A program made the position numbers and the translations under genes. From contig NZ_JACHWU010000001.1 of the NCBI RefSeq assembly GCF_014191605.1, positions 1,364,001 through 1,428,000 on the forward strand: a stretch of DNA of 64,000 bases, written 5' to 3'. This DNA comes from Prauserella isguenensis (lineage in GTDB: Bacteria > Actinomycetota > Actinomycetes > Mycobacteriales > Pseudonocardiaceae). Position 1 is the first letter of the stretch; each line of letters starts with the position of its first letter. The notes below the pieces were generated by a model. It ran no database searches and was not told where the DNA came from. It was given only the letters and a program-made list of their open reading frames with translations. This document shows positions 9,303 to 61,456 of the stretch, in pieces.

Positions 9303-10051
9303 GCATTTTCGACGGTCTGTCCAGGCCCGTGCGCGCCGCCGGGCTCGGCCTGCTGGCGGTCGCGGTGATCGCGGCGGTGATCGGCGGAGTCACCCTGGTG
9401 ACGGGCGGCGACGACCCGAACCCTGCCGCGCAGGAGACGTCGGAGACGAACGCGCCCGGCAACGGCAACGGCAACGGCGGGCAGTCCGGTTCGCCGGACG
9501 CTCAGCAGCCGGATTCCGGGGACGGCTCGGGCGACGGCTCCGGTAACGGTGACGGTGACGGTAGCGGTGAGAACGGCAACGGCTCCGATGGCAACGGCTC
9601 CGGTAACGGTGACGGCTCCGGTAACGGCGGTGGCGACGGCGGAGACGGCGCCGACGGAGGCGGCGCCGGCGGGTCTGCGGACGGTTCCGGTAACGGTGGT
9701 GGCAACGGCGGCGGCAACGGCGGCACCGCTAACGGTGGCGAGAACCAGAAGGTGAACATCAAGTCCGTCCACGTGCGGGTGTACAACAACTCCACGATCC
9801 GCGGACTGGCGCGCACGGCCGCCGACGACCTGCGGGCGCAGGGCTGGAACGTCGTCGAGGAGTCGAACTACTCCGACGGCGTCATCCCGGAGAGCACCGC
9901 CTACTTCCGCCCCGGCACCGATGAGGAGCACGCGGCCCGTGCGCTCGCCTCGGACCTCGGCATCCAGTCCGCGAAGCGGTTCAACGGCATCCAGGACTCG
10001 AGCCCCGGCGTCATCGTGATCGTGACGAAGGACTACGCCCAGAACCGCTGA
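9299..10051 (+). CDS. Membrane-anchored LytR_C domain protein (VirR/Rv0431-like)
   Basis: Protein of 250 residues. One transmembrane helix at about residues 12-34 (AAGLGLLAVAVIAAVIGGVTL) is followed by a roughly 100-residue Gly/Asn/Ser/Asp low-complexity linker made of GNGDGSG-type repeats. The extracytoplasmic LytR_C domain follows (about residues 155-250: VRVYNNSTIRGLARTAADDLRAQGW to GVIVIVTKDY). The position after DUF3263 and near def matches Rv0431 (VirR), which influences membrane vesicle release and envelope integrity in M. tuberculosis; that role is inferred here. The start overlaps the DUF3263 stop. The linker is DNA-repetitive and probably varies in length between strains. Confidence 0.88.
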   Translation: MSIFDGLSRPVRAAGLGLLAVAVIAAVIGGVTLVTGGDDPNPAAQETSETNAPGNGNGNGGQSGSPDAQQPDSGDGSGDGSGNGDGDGSGENGNGSDGNGSGNGDGSGNGGGDGGDGADGGGAGGSADGSGNGGGNGGGNGGTANGGENQKVNIKSVHVRVYNNSTIRGLARTAADDLRAQGWNVVEESNYSDGVIPESTAYFRPGTDEEHAARALASDLGIQSAKRFNGIQDSSPGVIVIVTKDYAQNR

Positions 10052-33600: not shown

Positions 33601-34396
33601 GCCGGGTGCGCACACTCCCGCCGAACGGCCCGCAGGCGACGGTTCGGCGGCGGGGCTGGCGGCGCGGCCGCACCGCGAACCGGAGCTCGAGCCCGCCGAA
33701 CAGACCGACGTGTCGGCGTTGGGCCCGGGGCCGACCTGGCCGATGCGCGACGGCGACGAACCCGCCGCGGCACCCACACCGCACTCCCTGCCGCAGCCCG
33801 AGGCCCCGGCCGGTCCCGACACGTCCGCGGACGACGGGTCCGGCGACGAGCCCACCGATCGGATGGCCGTCTACCGGCGCCTCATGACGCGGTGGTTCGA
33901 GCCGGACGGGGATCCACACGACTGGCTCCTCGACTCCACGGGCGAGGACGGTTCCGCGCGTAGCGTCATCGCCGGCCAGGCCGGTGCGACGTCCCACGAC
34001 TCCGGACCGCACGGTCGCTCCCGCAACGGTGCCGGCGCCGACGGTCCGGGGACACACGGTTCTGGGACGAACGGTGCGGGTCGGGGCGTTCCCGGCCACG
34101 CGGGTGCCGCTCCTGGTGGTTCCCACAGCGGACTAGACCACGACGGACTCGACCACAGCGGTGCCGACCACAGTGGCGCCGATCACGGCGGACTCGACCA
34201 CAGCGGTGCCGTGCCGGCGGGTTCGGCGGCCGCTCGTCCCACCGGCGACGGCGGTGACCGCAACGGGCGCGACGCCGACGGCGTGCAGCGGCGAGCGCCC
34301 GCGTTCATCGACAGGTCGCCCGAGGCGATTCGCGAACGGATGTCGGGACTGCAGCGGGCCACGGCACGCGCCAGGCACGCCCGCACCCACCGCTGA
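30647..34396 (+). CDS. NIT-domain sensor histidine kinase, CvnA-like (orphan)
   Basis: Membrane kinase of 1249 residues. The first TM (about residues 31-50, LLAALLVPILAMLGFAGL) is followed by a nitrate/nitrite-sensing-type (NIT) helical domain to about residue 320, a second TM (about 328-350), HAMP, a phospho-acceptor helix (ELDHLATRMRRNSENLLVL) and a HATPase (ISELFENATDYSPDE, DRGAGMPE, RMGLYVVARLA). A disordered 600-residue tail follows, rich in Pro/Ala/Glu, with an HSGLDHDGLDHSGADHSG-type repeat. Near the end are RMAVYRRLMTRWF and RSPEAIRERM, shared with the conservon kinase. TTG start at 30647, five to six bases from AAGGAAG. It has no cvnB, C or D partner of its own. It lies divergent from xpb. 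Confidence 0.88.
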   Translation: MPRRSQAPRDEAADIQRSGGRWRLRNWRLRTRLLAALLVPILAMLGFAGLRVESNLSEAGDFAAATERVRVDDTVANLVHELQRERDLTVRYVAGGRQGRPVEVLGQRERVDTARGDFEKTLTAARPELPDEAVEDFRQWERGLEGLADARYAGQHSQQSAGQVLAAYNEFVAGLLDLGGQASVDTADRELARTYLAAGAVARVKDALSIRRALVAQALASGAAPPELMRGLAGADVQVADARNNYAKFATPAQQRLLDDELNPRVEATSGVVTAVLNGDPAADPAGWDRQATQAVDAAKRAEDALRDDVRDRSTTLASEARSDALIDGAVILGVLLLAGLLAVAITRSLLRPLRTLRNSALDVAHYRLPEAVKGILADPDPRPEDAHRRCVEPVRVYSREELGQVARAFDAVHGQAVRLAGEQAMLRENVNSMFVNLSRRSQDLVERQLTVLDRMEEHEQDPDVLGGLFELDHLATRMRRNSENLLVLAGQDVGRPLPGAVAAEEIIGAALSEVEHYQRISVAATPQIGVRGEIVGDLVHVISELFENATDYSPDESPVSVVSAVTQDGEWRIDITDRGAGMPEAEIQRANTRLAEVPDVDVEVSRRMGLYVVARLARQHDIRVWLSAADLMGLTATVLVPSALVRRADASPQESPVALEEPAEQHQAQQQGRSSSVVFRPEPPRRPATALPSEPEPSEPLAPADEPADGPASAPVAPRGSGQPPPRESVAELFADPYADADTFGKPVDVPDPGPLPEPAVTAEPAATAEPAVTGDSGGTAEPAALQEQDASGAEEPAPVLPRRRPAVSEILGDDHAGATGDRNRPDDVVAPAGPGVADRAGEAGTAPVEVAAGEYAQAHGNLPGADRVDGAAGAVQPAAPWRPVRRPGAAPTADDSLTEEIPRVAGGSETGRAAAFGTREADWDEGSGAASTAARLPAPESAAEVTDGLTAPVPTVGAVPVEAEPDGRPADAVDGAAAEHAPAPGAHTPAERPAGDGSAAGLAARPHREPELEPAEQTDVSALGPGPTWPMRDGDEPAAAPTPHSLPQPEAPAGPDTSADDGSGDEPTDRMAVYRRLMTRWFEPDGDPHDWLLDSTGEDGSARSVIAGQAGATSHDSGPHGRSRNGAGADGPGTHGSGTNGAGRGVPGHAGAAPGGSHSGLDHDGLDHSGADHSGADHGGLDHSGAVPAGSAAARPTGDGGDRNGRDADGVQRRAPAFIDRSPEAIRERMSGLQRATARARHARTHR

Positions 34397-44895: not shown

Positions 44896-45704
44896 CTCCG
44901 GCGCGCGAGTGGGACCCGTCGGACTGGGACGCGCTGCACGAGGGCGGGGACCGGGAGTACGACGCCCCGGACCGATTCGACCTGGGCAGCCTGCCGCGGC
45001 AGCCCGCGCCAGGGCGGCCACCGGCGGGCCAGCACCCGCCCGGCAGGCACTCCGCCGAGCGGTTCCCGCCTCCGCCGCAGCCGGGGCACTCCCGGAACGA
45101 GCACCAGTTCCCGCCCGCACCGTCGCCGTACCAGCCGCCGGCGTCGGAGCCGTTTTCGGCGGACCAGCCGCCTTCCGAGGCGTTCCCACCGGAATCACGG
45201 CCGCCCGCGCCGCGGCGGAGCTCGTCGTCGCCGTCGTTCCCGCCCGCCTCCCGAGGCGGGGCGCAGAGCGGACACAGCGCATCCGGACAAGGCGCATCCG
45301 GACACAGCGCATCCGGATATGGCGGGGCGGCGGAGCCGGCGGAACCGCGACGGATGCACCGGTCGCTGGTGCGGCCGTACGCGCGCACGGGCGGACGCGT
45401 CGCGCCCGCGACGGACCTCCAGCTCGAGTCCCTCGTGTCGGCCTACGACGTCGCGGGCGCCACCGCGTCCGGAGCCGTGGCCTCCACCGTGCAGCGGTTC
45501 ATCTGTGACCTGTGCACGGAGGAGATCAAGTCGATCGCCGAGATCGCCGCGTACGCGCGGCTGCCGTTGGGCGTGGTGAAGGTGATCGTCTCCGACCTGG
45601 CCGACGCCGGAGCCGTGTCGATCCAGCGGCCCGGCAGGGTGACCGGTGATCGTTCCTCCCAGGCCTTCATGGAACGCATCCTGGAAGGTCTCAAAGCCCT
45701 GTAA
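44892..45704 (+). CDS. cvnC: Second DUF742 protein (CvnC')
   Basis: DUF742 protein of 270 residues. The N-terminal 150 residues are Pro/Ser/Gly-rich and include a (GHSAS)(GQGAS)(GHSAS)GYG repeat encoded by 15-bp units at 45270-45314. The C-terminal domain has SLVRPYARTGGRVAPATDLQLESLVS and FICDLCTEEIKSIAEIAAYARLPLGVVKVIVSDL. Like the first copy it has a CxxC at the same place. It overlaps the upstream roadblock gene by four bases, so the two are made together. Convergent with the helicase-like gene. Confidence 0.9.
   Translation: MTPAREWDPSDWDALHEGGDREYDAPDRFDLGSLPRQPAPGRPPAGQHPPGRHSAERFPPPPQPGHSRNEHQFPPAPSPYQPPASEPFSADQPPSEAFPPESRPPAPRRSSSSPSFPPASRGGAQSGHSASGQGASGHSASGYGGAAEPAEPRRMHRSLVRPYARTGGRVAPATDLQLESLVSAYDVAGATASGAVASTVQRFICDLCTEEIKSIAEIAAYARLPLGVVKVIVSDLADAGAVSIQRPGRVTGDRSSQAFMERILEGLKAL
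45270..45323 (+). repeat. 15-bp in-frame repeat inside the CvnC' gene
   Basis: Units GGACACAGCGCATCC, GGACAAGGCGCATCC, GGACACAGCGCATCC and a partial fourth lie head to tail. They encode GHSAS-type pentapeptides in the disordered part of CvnC', so changes in copy number would keep the reading frame. Confidence 0.85.
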
Positions 45705-53241: not shown

Positions 53242-53508
53242 TCAGCCGCCCGCGAACGGCGGCAGCACGTCGAGTTCCCCATCGGCGGGCAGCGGCCGGT
53301 CCGGGTCGCGCACGGCGACGCCGTCGACGAGGAAGCTCGCGGCGTCGAGGATCCGCGGCAGCGAACCGGGGTGGCGGGTGCGCAACGCCGCCATCGCGTC
53401 GGCCACCGTGGCACCGTCGGGCAGCTCGAGGGCCTCGGACTCGACTCCTGCGGCCGCGCGTGCGGACGCGAAGTACCGCACGCGCACTCTCGTCCCGGTA
53501 ACCGGCAC
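53242..53508 (-). CDS. moaD: Molybdopterin synthase small subunit MoaD
   Basis: Ubiquitin-like sulfur carrier of 88 residues, ending in the required Gly-Gly (LPPFAGG) that is thiocarboxylated. RVRYFASARAAAGVESEALELP, then TVADAMAALRTRHP and LVDGVAV, are typical. GTG start at 53508 with GGAGG eight bases upstream. Immediately downstream of moaA and probably coupled to it; partner of the MoaE half of the fusion at 50415. Corresponds to moaD2 (Rv0868c). Confidence 0.93.
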   Translation of the reverse strand: MPVTGTRVRVRYFASARAAAGVESEALELPDGATVADAMAALRTRHPGSLPRILDAASFLVDGVAVRDPDRPLPADGELDVLPPFAGG

Positions 53509-53512
53509 GCGC

Positions 53513-54655
53513 TCAGCCTCCGATCGAGCTCATCGGCCGGAGTGGCTGTGCGAACCCGGCCTCGTTGATCTCGTGTCCGGCGAGTTTGCCCCACATCGTG
53601 TCACGCCAGACGTTCGCGATGTCCTCGTCGCTCGCGCCACCGCGGAGCAGCATGCGCAGGTCCGTCTCGTCGTTGCTGAACAGGCAGGAGCGGACCGCGC
53701 CGTCCGCGGTCAGGCGGGTGCGCTCGCACGCGGCGCAGAACGGCCGCGTGACCGATGGGATCACGCCCACCTCGGCCGGGCCGCCGTCGACGAGCCAGCG
53801 TTCGGCCGGTGCACCGCCTCGTTCCGCCGGGCTGGGGGTGAGTGTGAACTCGGTCGAGAGCAGATCGAGGATCTCGGTCGCGGTGATCATGTTCGCCCGG
53901 TCCCAGCCGTGCTGAGCGTCGAGCGGCATCTGTTCGATGAACCGCAGGTGGTAGCCGTTCTCCAGCGCGAACCGCAGCAGCGACGTCGCCTCGTGGTCGT
54001 TCTCTCCCCGGATGAGGACGGCGTTGATCTTGACCGGTTCGAGGCCGGCCTCGCGGGCCGCGGCCAGGCCGTCGAGCACGTGGCGCAGCCGGTCGCGGCG
54101 GGTGATGCGCTCGAACGTCTCCGGGTTCACGGAGTCGAGCGAGACGTTGATGCGGTTCAGGCCCGCCTCGGCGAACGCTCCGGCGCGCTTGGCGAAGCCG
54201 ATGCCGTTCGTCGTCATCGACAGCCGCGGCCGTGGTTCGAGCGAGGTGATCCTCGCGACCAGCTCTTCGAGGTTCGGCCGCAGCAGCGGTTCGCCACCGG
54301 TGAGTCGGATGTCGGTCACGCCGAGCCTGCCGACGGCGATGTCCATGAGGCGGACGAGCTCGTCGTCGCTGAGGACCTGGTCGCCGGGCATCCACTCGAG
54401 ACCCTCGGCGGGCATGCAGTAGCTGCACCTCAGATTGCACTTGTCGGTCAGCGAGACGCGCAGGTCGGTGGCGACCCTGCCGAAGGTGTCGATCAACGCC
54501 GGGTTGTCCGGCCGTGGCGTCGTCGCGCCAGGGCCGGAGGAGCGCGCGCCGGGCACCGCCGGGGTGCCGAGGTTCACAGCGCTCCCCGTGTCGTTCCCGG
54601 TGCCGTTCCCGGTGCCGTGGCCTGTCGCGTGGCCTGCCGCCGATTCCGCTGCCAT
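53513..54655 (-). CDS. moaA: GTP 3',8-cyclase MoaA
   Basis: Radical-SAM enzyme starting molybdenum cofactor synthesis from GTP. It has 380 residues. The N-terminal cluster motif is CNLRCSYC and the C-terminal one FCAACERTRLTADGAVRSC, with the essential C-terminal Gly-Gly (SSIGG). Other conserved parts are DIRLTGGEPLLRP and NRINVSLDS. An N-terminal extension of about 50 residues, including a GHGTGNGTGN repeat, precedes the first conserved block and is not present in most MoaA proteins. Start uncertain among GTG 54661, GTG 54658 and ATG 54655 (TAGGGT lies eight bases before the ATG). Corresponds to moaA2 (Rv0869c). Confidence 0.93.
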   Translation of the reverse strand: MAAESAAGHATGHGTGNGTGNDTGSAVNLGTPAVPGARSSGPGATTPRPDNPALIDTFGRVATDLRVSLTDKCNLRCSYCMPAEGLEWMPGDQVLSDDELVRLMDIAVGRLGVTDIRLTGGEPLLRPNLEELVARITSLEPRPRLSMTTNGIGFAKRAGAFAEAGLNRINVSLDSVNPETFERITRRDRLRHVLDGLAAAREAGLEPVKINAVLIRGENDHEATSLLRFALENGYHLRFIEQMPLDAQHGWDRANMITATEILDLLSTEFTLTPSPAERGGAPAERWLVDGGPAEVGVIPSVTRPFCAACERTRLTADGAVRSCLFSNDETDLRMLLRGGASDEDIANVWRDTMWGKLAGHEINEAGFAQPLRPMSSIGG

Positions 54656-54772
54656 CACCACTCACCCTAGTGCCGGGGACCGACAGTGTGTGAGATCGCG
54701 AACGCACCGAATTGGTACCGGTTCGACGTCAGGCGATGGCCACACCGCAGATGCGGAGATAATCTTCGTTTC

Positions 54773-55204
54773 ATGACGCATTTTCGGTTCTCCGACGCGG
54801 CGCGGTTGCTGGGCGTCAGCGACGACACCGTCCGCAGGTGGGTGCGCGCGGGGCAGCTCGAGGCGGGCGAGGACGACGCGGGCCGCAAGGTGGTCGACGG
54901 CGCCGAGTTGGCGGCGTTCGCCAGGAGGCAGGCGGTGCGGTCGGCCGAGGAGGACCGGACGGCAGAGTCGGCCGATCCCAGCGAGATCGGCAGGTCGGCA
55001 CGGAACCGGTTCGTCGGCCTGGTCACCGAGGTCGTCGCGGACGGGGTCATGGCGCAGGTCGAGGTGCAGTGCGGCCCCCACCGCGTGGTGTCGCTGATGA
55101 GTGCGGAGGCGGTGCGGGAACTCGGCCTGAAACCGGGCGAGCTCGCGGTGACCGTGGTGAAGGCGACCCAGGTGATCGTCGAGACGCCGCGAGGTGTCCG
55201 ATGA
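54773..55204 (+). CDS. HTH-TOBE (molybdate-binding) regulator
   Basis: Protein of 143 residues. Residues 1-50 form a MerR/excisionase-like HTH (FRFSDAARLLGVSDDTVRRWVRAGQLEAG). Residues 75-140 form one TOBE/Mop domain (RNRFVGLVTEVVADGVMAQVEVQCGPHRVVSLMSAEAVRELGL), which in related proteins binds molybdate. It is a good candidate for sensing molybdate and regulating modABC or the divergent moaA-moaD, though this is inferred. ATG at 54773 lies seven bases after TAATCT, suggesting a leaderless mRNA. The stop overlaps the modA start (ATGA). Confidence 0.9.
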   Translation: MTHFRFSDAARLLGVSDDTVRRWVRAGQLEAGEDDAGRKVVDGAELAAFARRQAVRSAEEDRTAESADPSEIGRSARNRFVGLVTEVVADGVMAQVEVQCGPHRVVSLMSAEAVRELGLKPGELAVTVVKATQVIVETPRGVR

Positions 55205-55980
55205 GGCCGGCCGGGCGACAGGGCGTGCGGCGGGCCCTGCGCAGCAGGCGGGCCGGCGCGGTCGTGCTGGCCGCGGCGGTCGCCGTCGGCACCGTCGCCT
55301 GCGGCTCGGAGGGGCGGACGTTGAACGTGTTCGCTGCGGCCTCGCTCACCGAGCCGTTCGGCCTGCTGGAGAAGGCCTTCGAGCAGCGGCACCCGGACGT
55401 CGACGTGCGGCTCAACCTCGCGGGCTCGTCGACACTCGGCAGCCAGATCGCCGAGGGCGCGCCCGCGGACGTGTTCGCCTCGGCGGACGAGCAGACGATG
55501 GCCGACGTGGCAGCCGACATGGACGGCGAGCCGGAGCCGTTCGCGACCAACCGGCTGACGATCGCCGTGCCGCCCGGCAACCCGGCAGGCATCCAGAACT
55601 TCGAGGACCTGGAGCGAGGCGGCGCGACCGTCGTGGTGTGCCAGCCGCAGGTGCCGTGCGGGGCCGCGGCCCGGCAGGTCGCGAAACTGGCCGGGACGTC
55701 GCTGAGTCCGGCCAGCGAGGAACAGGACGTCAAGGACGTGCTCAACAAGGTCGTCACCCGCGAGGCCGACGCCGGGCTCGTGTACCGCACGGACGTGCAG
55801 GCGGCGGCACGGAAGGTCGAGGAGGTACGCATTCCGCAGGCGTCCCGCGCCGAGAACCGGTACCCGATCGCCGTCTCCGCCCGTGCCGCCGAGCCCGAGC
55901 TCGCCGCCGAGTTCCGGGACCTGGTTCTCGGCGACGAGGGGCGCCGGGTGCTCGGGGAGGCCGGTTTTGGCACGCCGTGA
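55201..55980 (+). CDS. modA: Molybdate ABC transporter substrate-binding lipoprotein ModA
   Basis: Binding protein of 259 residues for molybdate. Basic N-terminus, hydrophobic AVVLAAAVAVGTVAC with the Cys as lipid anchor, then the ModA fold: LNVFAAASLTEPF, VRLNLAGSSTLGSQIAEGAPADVFASAD, ATNRLTIAVPPGNP, VCQPQVPCG, GLVYRTDV. ATG overlaps the regulator stop by four bases, so HTH-TOBE, modA, modB and modC form one operon. The stop is followed by the 15-bp repeat array that precedes modB. Confidence 0.94.
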   Translation: MRPAGRQGVRRALRSRRAGAVVLAAAVAVGTVACGSEGRTLNVFAAASLTEPFGLLEKAFEQRHPDVDVRLNLAGSSTLGSQIAEGAPADVFASADEQTMADVAADMDGEPEPFATNRLTIAVPPGNPAGIQNFEDLERGGATVVVCQPQVPCGAAARQVAKLAGTSLSPASEEQDVKDVLNKVVTREADAGLVYRTDVQAAARKVEEVRIPQASRAENRYPIAVSARAAEPELAAEFRDLVLGDEGRRVLGEAGFGTP

Positions 55981-55993
55981 CGGCAGGCGCCGC

Positions 55994-56104
55994 GACGCCG
56001 TGCCCACCGACGCCGTGCCCACCGACGCCGTGCCCACCGACGCCGTGCCCACCGACGACGTGCCCACGGACGCCGTGCCCACCGAGGACGTGCCCACCGA
56101 CACC
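55994..56104 (+). repeat. 15-bp tandem repeat array at the modA-modB junction
   Basis: Seven head-to-tail 15-bp units and a degenerate eighth (unit GACGCCGTGCCCACC; 55994-56098 complete) start 14 bases after the modA stop. Each unit contains a GTG in the modB reading frame, and if translated they encode (D/E)(A/D)VPT pentapeptides. Units 1-4 are identical, the later ones vary by one to three bases. A 15-bp period means copy-number change would not shift the frame. Confidence 0.9.
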
Positions 56105-56926
56105 GTGACGTCCGGCGGTGGGCTGCGCTCGCGCAGGACACGCAACCGGAACCCGGGCCTACCGTGGGTGTTGTGGATCCCCGCGGGGCTCGCGCTCGCA
56201 CTGGTCGTGCTACCGGTCGTCGGCCTGCTCGTGCGGACCGACTACGCACGCCTGCCGGAGCTGCTGACGTCGTCCGCCGCCCTGAGCGCGCTGCGGTTGT
56301 CACTGGTCACTGCCTCCCTGTCGACGATCGCGTGCGTCGTGCTGGGCGTGCCGCTGGCCGTCGTGCTGGCGAGGGCGAGGGGCCGCGGCGTGCGGCTCGT
56401 GCGTGCCGTGGTGCTGCTGCCGCTGGTGCTGCCGCCCGTCGTGGGTGGCCTGGCGCTGCTGTACCTGCTCGGCCGCAACGGATTCCTCGGTTACCTGCTC
56501 GACGTCGTGGCTGGCGTGAGCGTGCCGTTCACGACGACGGCCGTGGTGATCGCACAGACGTTCGTGGCGATGCCGTTCCTCGTCGTCAGCCTCGAAGGGG
56601 CGCTGCGCGGGAGCGGGCAGCGCTACGAACTGGTCGCGGCCACCCTCGGCGCCCGCCCCTGGACCGTGTTCCGCCGCGTGACCGTGCCGTTGCTGTTACC
56701 CGCGCTCGGCTCCGGTGCCGTGCTGAGCTTCGCGCGGGCGTTGGGCGAGTTCGGTGCGACGATCACGTTCGCGGGCAGTTTGGAAGGAGTGACGCGGACG
56801 TTGCCGCTCGAGGTGTACGCGCAGGCGCAGGCCGACGTCGACAGCGCCGTGGCGTTGGCGTTGCTGCTGATCGTCGTCGCTGTCGTGGTGATCGCGGTGG
56901 CCAGGCCGAAGGCGTTCGACCGATGA
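56000..56926 (+). CDS. modB: Molybdate ABC transporter permease ModB
   Basis: Inner-membrane permease of up to 308 residues with about five to six hydrophobic stretches, the first from WVLWIPAGLALALVVLPVVGLLV. The permease loop and C-terminus GEFGATITFAGSLEGVTRTLPLEVYAQ are typical of ModB. The start is uncertain: the repeat array supplies in-frame GTG codons every 15 bases from 56000 to 56090, and GTG 56105 is another. I give the first after the modA stop. A start at 56105 would leave about 20 residues before the first TM and omit the VPTD repeats. Its stop overlaps modC (ATGA). Confidence 0.9.
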   Translation: MPTDAVPTDAVPTDAVPTDDVPTDAVPTEDVPTDTVTSGGGLRSRRTRNRNPGLPWVLWIPAGLALALVVLPVVGLLVRTDYARLPELLTSSAALSALRLSLVTASLSTIACVVLGVPLAVVLARARGRGVRLVRAVVLLPLVLPPVVGGLALLYLLGRNGFLGYLLDVVAGVSVPFTTTAVVIAQTFVAMPFLVVSLEGALRGSGQRYELVAATLGARPWTVFRRVTVPLLLPALGSGAVLSFARALGEFGATITFAGSLEGVTRTLPLEVYAQAQADVDSAVALALLLIVVAVVVIAVARPKAFDR

Positions 56927-58101
56927 GCCTGCACGTGGACGTGGCCGTGAGGCGCGGGCGGTTCACGCTGGACGTGGCGTTCGAGGTGCCGGCCGGCGGT
57001 GTGCTGGCGGTGCTCGGGCCCAACGGGTCCGGCAAGTCGACGCTGCTGCAGTGCCTGGCCGGACTGCTGGTACCCGGGCGCGGAACGGTGACGCTCGGTG
57101 GCCGGACCCTGACCAGCGTCCCGGGCGTGCAGGTGCCGGTCCACGACCGCGGTATCGGCCTGCTCGCCCAGGATCCGCTGCTGCTGCCGCACCTGACGGT
57201 CGTGGAGAACGTGGCGTTCGGCCCCCGGTCGCAGGGTGTCTCACGCGTGCGCGCACGCGCGCAGGCGCGCGCGTGGTTGAAGGAGGTCGATGCCGCCGGG
57301 TTCGCCCGCCGTAGGCCCGCGCAGCTGTCCGGTGGGCAGGCTCAGCGGGTCGCCGTCGCCCGCGCGCTGGCGGGCGGGCCGCGGGCACTGCTGCTCGACG
57401 AACCGCTGTCGGCGCTGGACGTCGACGCGTCGCCCGCTGTACGCGGACTGTTGCGGAGAGTCCTGCGGCGCAGTCACTCCCGCGACGGACACTCCGGTGA
57501 CGAGCTTTCCGGAACCGGGCGCGAGGTGACCGGCGGCGATCGCTGTGCCGTGCTCGTCACCCACGACCCGCTCGACGCGCTGGCCCTCGCCGATGACGTC
57601 GTGGTCCTCGACGCCGGGCGGATCGTCGAGCGCGGACCGGTGAAGGAGGTGCTGGCCGCGCCGCGCACGCCGTTCACGGCGCGGATCGCCGGCCTGAACC
57701 TCGTCTCCGGGCTGGCCGCCGACGGCGGTTTGCGCGCCACGGACGGACGGTTCGTCGCCGGCGTTCCCTCCGGCGACTGCGTGGCAGGCGAGCCGGCCGT
57801 CGCGGTGTTCGCCCCGGGCGCCGTCGCGGTACACCCGGCGGATGCGCCGCACACGGGCAGTCCGCGCAACGTCGTCGACGCGCGGGTGTCCTCACTCGAA
57901 CCGCACGGCGCCGTGATCAGCCTCCGCACCGCGGGTGAGGCAGGTGCCGAGGCTGGAATCGCCGCCGATCTGACGCCCGCCTCCGTCGCCGAGCTCGGAC
58001 TGGAACCGGGCTCGCCGGTGCGGCTGGAGGTGAAGGCCGCGGCGGTCGCCGTGCACCCCGCGGTGGAGTCGCCGTCGCCGTTCCCGGCCGCCGAGCCCTA
58101 A
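56923..58101 (+). CDS. modC: Molybdate ABC transporter ATPase ModC
   Basis: ATPase of 392 residues. Walker A GPNGSGKSTLL, Q-loop LAQDPLLLPHLT, signature QLSGGQAQRVAVARAL, Walker B ALLLDEPLSALD, H-loop LVTHDPLDAL. The C-terminal TOBE-type domain ends VRLEVKAAAVAVHP. Between Walker B and the H-loop there is an extra hydrophilic stretch, RSHSRDGHSGDELSGTGREV, that typical ModC lacks. The start overlaps the modB stop by four bases. The HAD gene follows ten bases after. Confidence 0.93.
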   Translation: MSLHVDVAVRRGRFTLDVAFEVPAGGVLAVLGPNGSGKSTLLQCLAGLLVPGRGTVTLGGRTLTSVPGVQVPVHDRGIGLLAQDPLLLPHLTVVENVAFGPRSQGVSRVRARAQARAWLKEVDAAGFARRRPAQLSGGQAQRVAVARALAGGPRALLLDEPLSALDVDASPAVRGLLRRVLRRSHSRDGHSGDELSGTGREVTGGDRCAVLVTHDPLDALALADDVVVLDAGRIVERGPVKEVLAAPRTPFTARIAGLNLVSGLAADGGLRATDGRFVAGVPSGDCVAGEPAVAVFAPGAVAVHPADAPHTGSPRNVVDARVSSLEPHGAVISLRTAGEAGAEAGIAADLTPASVAELGLEPGSPVRLEVKAAAVAVHPAVESPSPFPAAEP

Positions 58102-58110
58102 GGTGGGCGC

Positions 58111-58911
<801 letters not shown>

Positions 58912-61260: not shown

Positions 61261-61378
61261 CTCGCCAGTGTTCCGGAACCGGCCCTGCGTCGGCCACCCG
61301 CTGAGCGCCGGGTCTCACGCACCTCCCCGCCGGTCGGCCCGCTCCGGTCGGACCACCGGGCGATGCGACGTTCAGGGT

Positions 61379-61456
61379 GGCGACGGTCAGCGGTGCGATG
61401 GCCAGCGGCGACGGTCAGCGGCGACGGTCAGCGGTGTGACGGTCAGCGGTGCGACA
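61379..61456. repeat. Degenerate 13-15-bp tandem repeats after phzF
   Basis: Five or so head-to-tail copies of GGCGACGGTCAGC or GGTGTGACGGTCAGC-type units end directly at the PhzF-family stop codon, filling most of the gap to the YccF start. No other feature was seen in the gap 61261-61456. Confidence 0.7.

Follow-up and report, generated by a model that had tools for sequence, protein, structure and literature searches.

The window, i.e., the whole stretch of 64,000 nucleotides of Prauserella isguenensis DNA that we have analysed, carries modA, modB and a modC-like ATPase gene in a row on the forward strand (Table 1). Upstream of modA lie an HTH-TOBE gene and moaA (other strand). The names modA and modB, which had been proposed in an earlier note on this DNA, hold by NCBIfam: in addition to the ModA match, both ModB permease matches score above the curated cut-offs (TIGR01581, 241.9 versus 210.3 bits; TIGR02141, 208.2 versus 182.6 bits).

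Table 1. Genes and features around the junction of modA and modB, with positions in the window.
Feature	Positions	Strand	Basis and remarks
modA, molybdate-binding protein	55201-55980	+	ATG start proposed; TGA stop 55978-55980; TIGR01256 113.5 bits versus cut-off 62.5
Shine-Dalgarno-like GGGGAGG for modB, inside modA	55954-55960	+	Sequence; anti-Shine-Dalgarno duplex -10.8 kcal/mol
modB, permease, from the proposed TTG start	55967-56926	+	Overlaps modA by 14 nt; TTG in 7/7 genus genomes
Variable N-terminal tail of ModB, residues 1-66, before the first predicted helix	55967-56164	+	Structure prediction; length varies between species
Seven complete 15-bp units, in modB frame, encoding (D/E)(A/D)VPT repeats	55994-56098	+	Tandem Repeats Finder, translation, unit comparison
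Degenerate eighth unit GACACCGTGACGTCC	56099-56113	+	Read from the sequence
modC-like ATPase gene	56923-58101	+	ABC_tran and TOBE domains; below the TIGR02142 (ModC) cut-off; ATGA overlap with modB

The repeat array at the modA-modB junction

Behind the modA stop, an array of 15-bp units spans 55994-56113. Its seven complete units begin at 55994, 56009, 56024, 56039, 56054, 56069 and 56084; five of them are exact copies of GACGCCGTGCCCACC, and those at 56054 and 56084 carry two mismatches each. All eight units, including the degenerate one, contain a GTG in the modB frame (56000, 56015, 56030, 56045, 56060, 56075, 56090 and 56105).

Tandem Repeats Finder (TRF) places the array at 55993-56107 with period 15, 7.7 copies and a score of 195, the top of 44 rows in the window, whereas the best array score lies between 46 and 77 in 30 dinucleotide-preserving shuffles of the window. 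The head-to-tail copies are thus beyond chance, and the unit is a multiple of three within an open frame, since the modB frame is open from TTG 55967. Both are properties of a minisatellite. The array, with an in-frame GTG in every unit, is therefore as real as had been claimed, while its placing at the modA-modB junction stands in part: it does follow the modA stop, but it most likely lies within modB and not ahead of it. Further tandem arrays of period 15 are present in the window, among others at 9632-9672, 34150-34211, 45269-45317 and 61365-61455.

We have also considered the array as a dispersed repeat. This was rejected, as the junction (55950-56180), apart from matching itself, is matched only weakly elsewhere in the genome, at best with E = 2.9e-7 and 78% over 64 nt among the 40 of 205 first-look candidates that were scored. 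Three of the weak matches, L002-L004, are stretches with several open frames; L003 (1501-1584) is also repeat-rich, and one of its minus-strand open frames reads TDTGTTD-like units. A search of Rfam within 53400-58200 gave no match up to E = 1, that is, no known RNA element, and among the literature titles listed for the subject none is on a repeat in modB.

A putative modB start inside modA

The open modB frame reaches upstream beyond the array, and TTG 55967 sits inside the end of modA. Pairing energies were calculated with the anti-Shine-Dalgarno (anti-SD) sequence of the 16S tail as we take it to be, and 1000 random window positions served as background (1% quantile -9.9, 10% quantile -6.5, median -3.1 kcal/mol). 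The duplex at TTG 55967 (Table 1) falls under the 1% quantile. In addition, a TTG in this modA-overlapping position requires that the modA Phe codon is TTT, not TTC. TTT accounts for one of the eight Phe codons in modA, namely the one at the TTG site, for none of the nine in modB, and for two of 57 over seven window genes, a count that leaves out modC.

For the comparison at the genus level, seven genomes of Prauserella and kin were used, one per species and including the window species, and a modB match is found in every one of them. In all seven, a TTG keeps the same position with respect to the modA stop, with a frame that is open into modB, and this includes three genomes without such an array. 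The ribosome site ahead of the TTG reads GGGGAGG in just two genomes, that of the window and that of P. aidingensis, and GAAGG in the other five. On sequence grounds, modB most likely starts at TTG 55967, overlapping the end of modA, and minor internal initiation may take place at an array GTG. As the TTG start is upstream of the array, the latter is probably translated, in the N-terminal tail of ModB.

The modA-modB junctions have also been compared over the family. From 110 loci (L009-L118; 80 of at least 420 confirmed ones, plus 30 given for 285 matching of 297 genomes), 20 duplicates and L059, which is without modA, were removed, so that 89 distinct loci were left; because they come from related species, the counts are not independent. 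Among these listed loci, the distance from the modA stop to the modB core is 1 mod 3 in 74, 2 mod 3 in 14 and 0 mod 3 in one. A TTG 11 nt before the modA stop is found in 35 of the 74 frame-1 loci, versus one of the 15 others. The Phe codon goes along with the modB frame in the loci listed: TTT occurs in 36 frame-1 loci and one other, TTC in six and 11, respectively (Fisher p = 1.4e-6). With a looser definition, i.e., the last Phe codon at most 9 codons from the modA stop, the same loci give TTT in 50 and two, and TTC in 24 and 13 (p = 2.5e-4). In 13 of the 14 frame-2 loci listed, the modA stop is part of an ATGA or GTGA (the exception, L061, has ATAA), and this NTGA is an open in-frame modB start in 12. 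Over all 89 listed loci, an open in-frame NTG is present within the last 40 nt of modA in 69, and only 18 of these 69 overlapping starts reach an anti-SD energy of -6.5 kcal/mol. It is absent in the other 20, which indicates that other start arrangements exist.

Two main junction types can be distinguished, namely a TTG overlap of 14 or 17 nt and an NTGA overlap of 4 nt with modB in another frame (for example L032, L064 and L082 versus L009-L015). The window retains a GTGA at the modA stop as well; its GTG 55977 was considered as the modB start and rejected, being out of the modB frame. In nine Amycolatopsis loci (L035, L045, L050, L053, L068, L072, L085, L088 and L089), no ATG, GTG or TTG in the modB frame lies between the upstream stop and the beginning of the aligned modB core, and modB may use there a start within the core or a non-standard start codon.

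The ModB tail and the role of the array

Translated from the TTG (as Met), ModB begins with MARRDGRRR, which is followed by the DAVPT-type repeats, an Arg-rich stretch and then the conserved part. With its DAVPT repeats in the open modB frame, the array does lengthen a repeat N-terminus, as had been supposed before. The structure model of ModB is poor overall (mean pLDDT 48.3), and only the lack of structure in the tail was taken from it. No secondary structure is predicted up to residue 66; pLDDT stays below 50 over residues 1-64, and at 34-39 per 10-residue block over residues 1-60. The tail is probably disordered and cytoplasmic. The solved relatives 3d31 and 2onk were considered as proteins lacking the N-terminal stretch and were set aside: their alignments start at P0001 residues 76 and 73 but at chain residues 51 and 36, respectively, so the lack of such a stretch in those proteins is not demonstrated.

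The length of the tail varies between species. Measured from the TTG to the LPW motif, it amounts to 186 nt in the window, 180 nt in P. alba, 165 nt in P. salsuginis and 126 nt in P. aidingensis, and to 66 nt in Saccharomonospora sp. CUA-673, 57 nt in P. halophila and 51 nt in P. rugosa. The nearest sister is P. aidingensis, with 93.2% nucleotide identity over the modA and modB codons, and the comparison of unit numbers suggested in the earlier note gives 7.7 copies in the window versus 3.9 copies of a related unit in this species, with one genome per species (TRF score of the latter 76, not calibrated against chance). With scores that are likewise uncalibrated, P. salsuginis has 2.9 copies of a different 15-bp unit (score 72) plus an 18-bp row (score 45). 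The 15-bp unit of P. alba, in 2.3 copies (score 54), is different again, and P. halophila has only a 19-bp row of 1.9 copies (score 53). For P. rugosa and Saccharomonospora sp. CUA-673, TRF finds no tandem repeat row at the modB tail. In the tree, P. halophila, whose tail is short, falls together with P. salsuginis and P. alba (support 99), and this grouping implies that the tail length has changed more than once.

Overall, the array is very probably an in-frame minisatellite inside modB, located in a variable tail downstream of a conserved TTG start hidden in modA, and presumably mostly neutral. Ribosomes would start at TTG 55967 using its own Shine-Dalgarno match. Since this TTG overlaps the modA end and has such a match, the array would be read as (DAVPT)n in a flexible tail that precedes the first membrane helix and is probably on the cytoplasmic side, and the array GTGs would be ordinary valine codons. 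Units are presumably gained or lost by slippage or recombination. As the unit is 15 bp, such a gain or loss should change the tail length only, and this length would be largely neutral.

Another reading, also compatible with the TTG start, places the effect of the array in the mRNA: the C-rich array would pair with the G-rich modB ribosome-binding site, so that modB depends on modA translation and the unit number sets the tightness. We regard this as unlikely. With folding limits of 60 nt upstream and 90 nt downstream, opening the start region is calculated to take 11.0 kcal/mol when no unit is present and 19.2 kcal/mol with at least four units, and the native value is the second highest of 35 TTG loci under the same limits. 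About 14 of the 19 nt of the start region are predicted to be paired with units 1-3, and the native opening energy is reached by three of 150 random in-frame coding pieces. However, 13 of 100 codon-shuffled arrays reach it too, and when the downstream limit is extended to 150 nt, the array adds no more than 0.9 to 3.6 kcal/mol (18.3 to 19.2, 14.3 to 17.9 and 16.4 to 18.2 for 60, 30 and 100 nt upstream, respectively). Taken as a whole, the junction does not differ in folding from its shuffled versions (z -0.58), 57 of 200 of which equal or exceed it in stability, and opening energies in the six sister species are only 9.4-13.6 kcal/mol, including 11.1 in P. aidingensis with its approximately four units. 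Such pairing is therefore a weak lead from RNA folding, which depends on the fold limits and is not seen in the sister species. That a gain of a few in-frame units silenced stand-alone modB initiation and tied modB to modA translation, with a harmless tail for the protein, has accordingly a small chance of being right. If it were true, the repeat number would be a simple means to tune transporter stoichiometry.

It is very unlikely that the DAVPT tail has been selected for a protein function, e.g., partner binding or the setting of the transporter level, though a start at the TTG would allow this as well. Four of the seven genus genomes have long tails (126-186 nt between TTG and LPW), but the other three have short ones, and the tail sequence is poorly conserved: the unit is common to the window and P. 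aidingensis only, while P. salsuginis and P. alba differ.

The earlier note had raised the possibility that every array GTG is a usable start, the unit number tuning modB translation or yielding a ladder of ModB N-termini; this is highly improbable, for although each of the eight GTGs shares the modB frame and GTG 56000 begins 19 nt past the modA stop, a distance that still permitted coupled reinitiation in some of the work on E. coli (PMC12548453), no ribosome-binding site is recognisable ahead of them, with an anti-SD energy of 0 at four of the eight (56015-56060) and of -1.8 to -5.7 kcal/mol at the other four, which is within background (10% quantile -6.5), and the upstream TTG with its strong Shine-Dalgarno match is kept in all seven genus genomes, three of them lacking such an array. 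The neutral VNTR, which the same note had offered as the other option, is the better of the two. It had named as contrary evidence that related strains lack the array and that ModB starts at the equivalent of GTG 56105. Three of the six sister species are indeed without such an array, but the start of ModB seems to lie upstream of it, not at that GTG.

Comparison with known systems

The mycobacterial interspersed repetitive units (MIRUs) of PMC12548453 are described there as seemingly mobile elements, each with an ORF of its own that comes to be coupled at -4 nt spacing to the gene that follows. The array shares with them a location close to where two genes of the same direction meet, and an actinobacterial host. 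Unlike them, it consists of 15-bp units inside modB, and within the open modB frame no ORF of its own coupled at -4 nt is found.

The proposed modB start overlaps the modA end, as in the translationally coupled overlapping pairs treated in PMC12548453, and other family loci have the NTGA overlap that is common in such pairs. In the genus studied here, however, the proposed overlap is 14 nt through a TTG instead of 4 nt; according to that text, 14 nt is less favourable than 4 nt for coupling of the reinitiation type. The striking row of in-frame start-like codons is explainable by a start codon hidden in the preceding gene, and the locus offers an example of a site just past an overlapping start at which repeats are gained and lost while the frame is kept.

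Borg elements have been described as carrying in-frame tandem repeats within genes, which code for disordered segments of the proteins and are stated to be under strong selection (PMC9879509). The present array resembles them in that its unit is a multiple of three in a reading frame, that it varies between close relatives, and that it encodes a part of a membrane protein for which no structure is predicted; it differs in that it is a single short array and that its host gene is an ordinary transporter gene of a bacterium. The array is most likely a known kind of element, namely an in-frame minisatellite in a variable tail.
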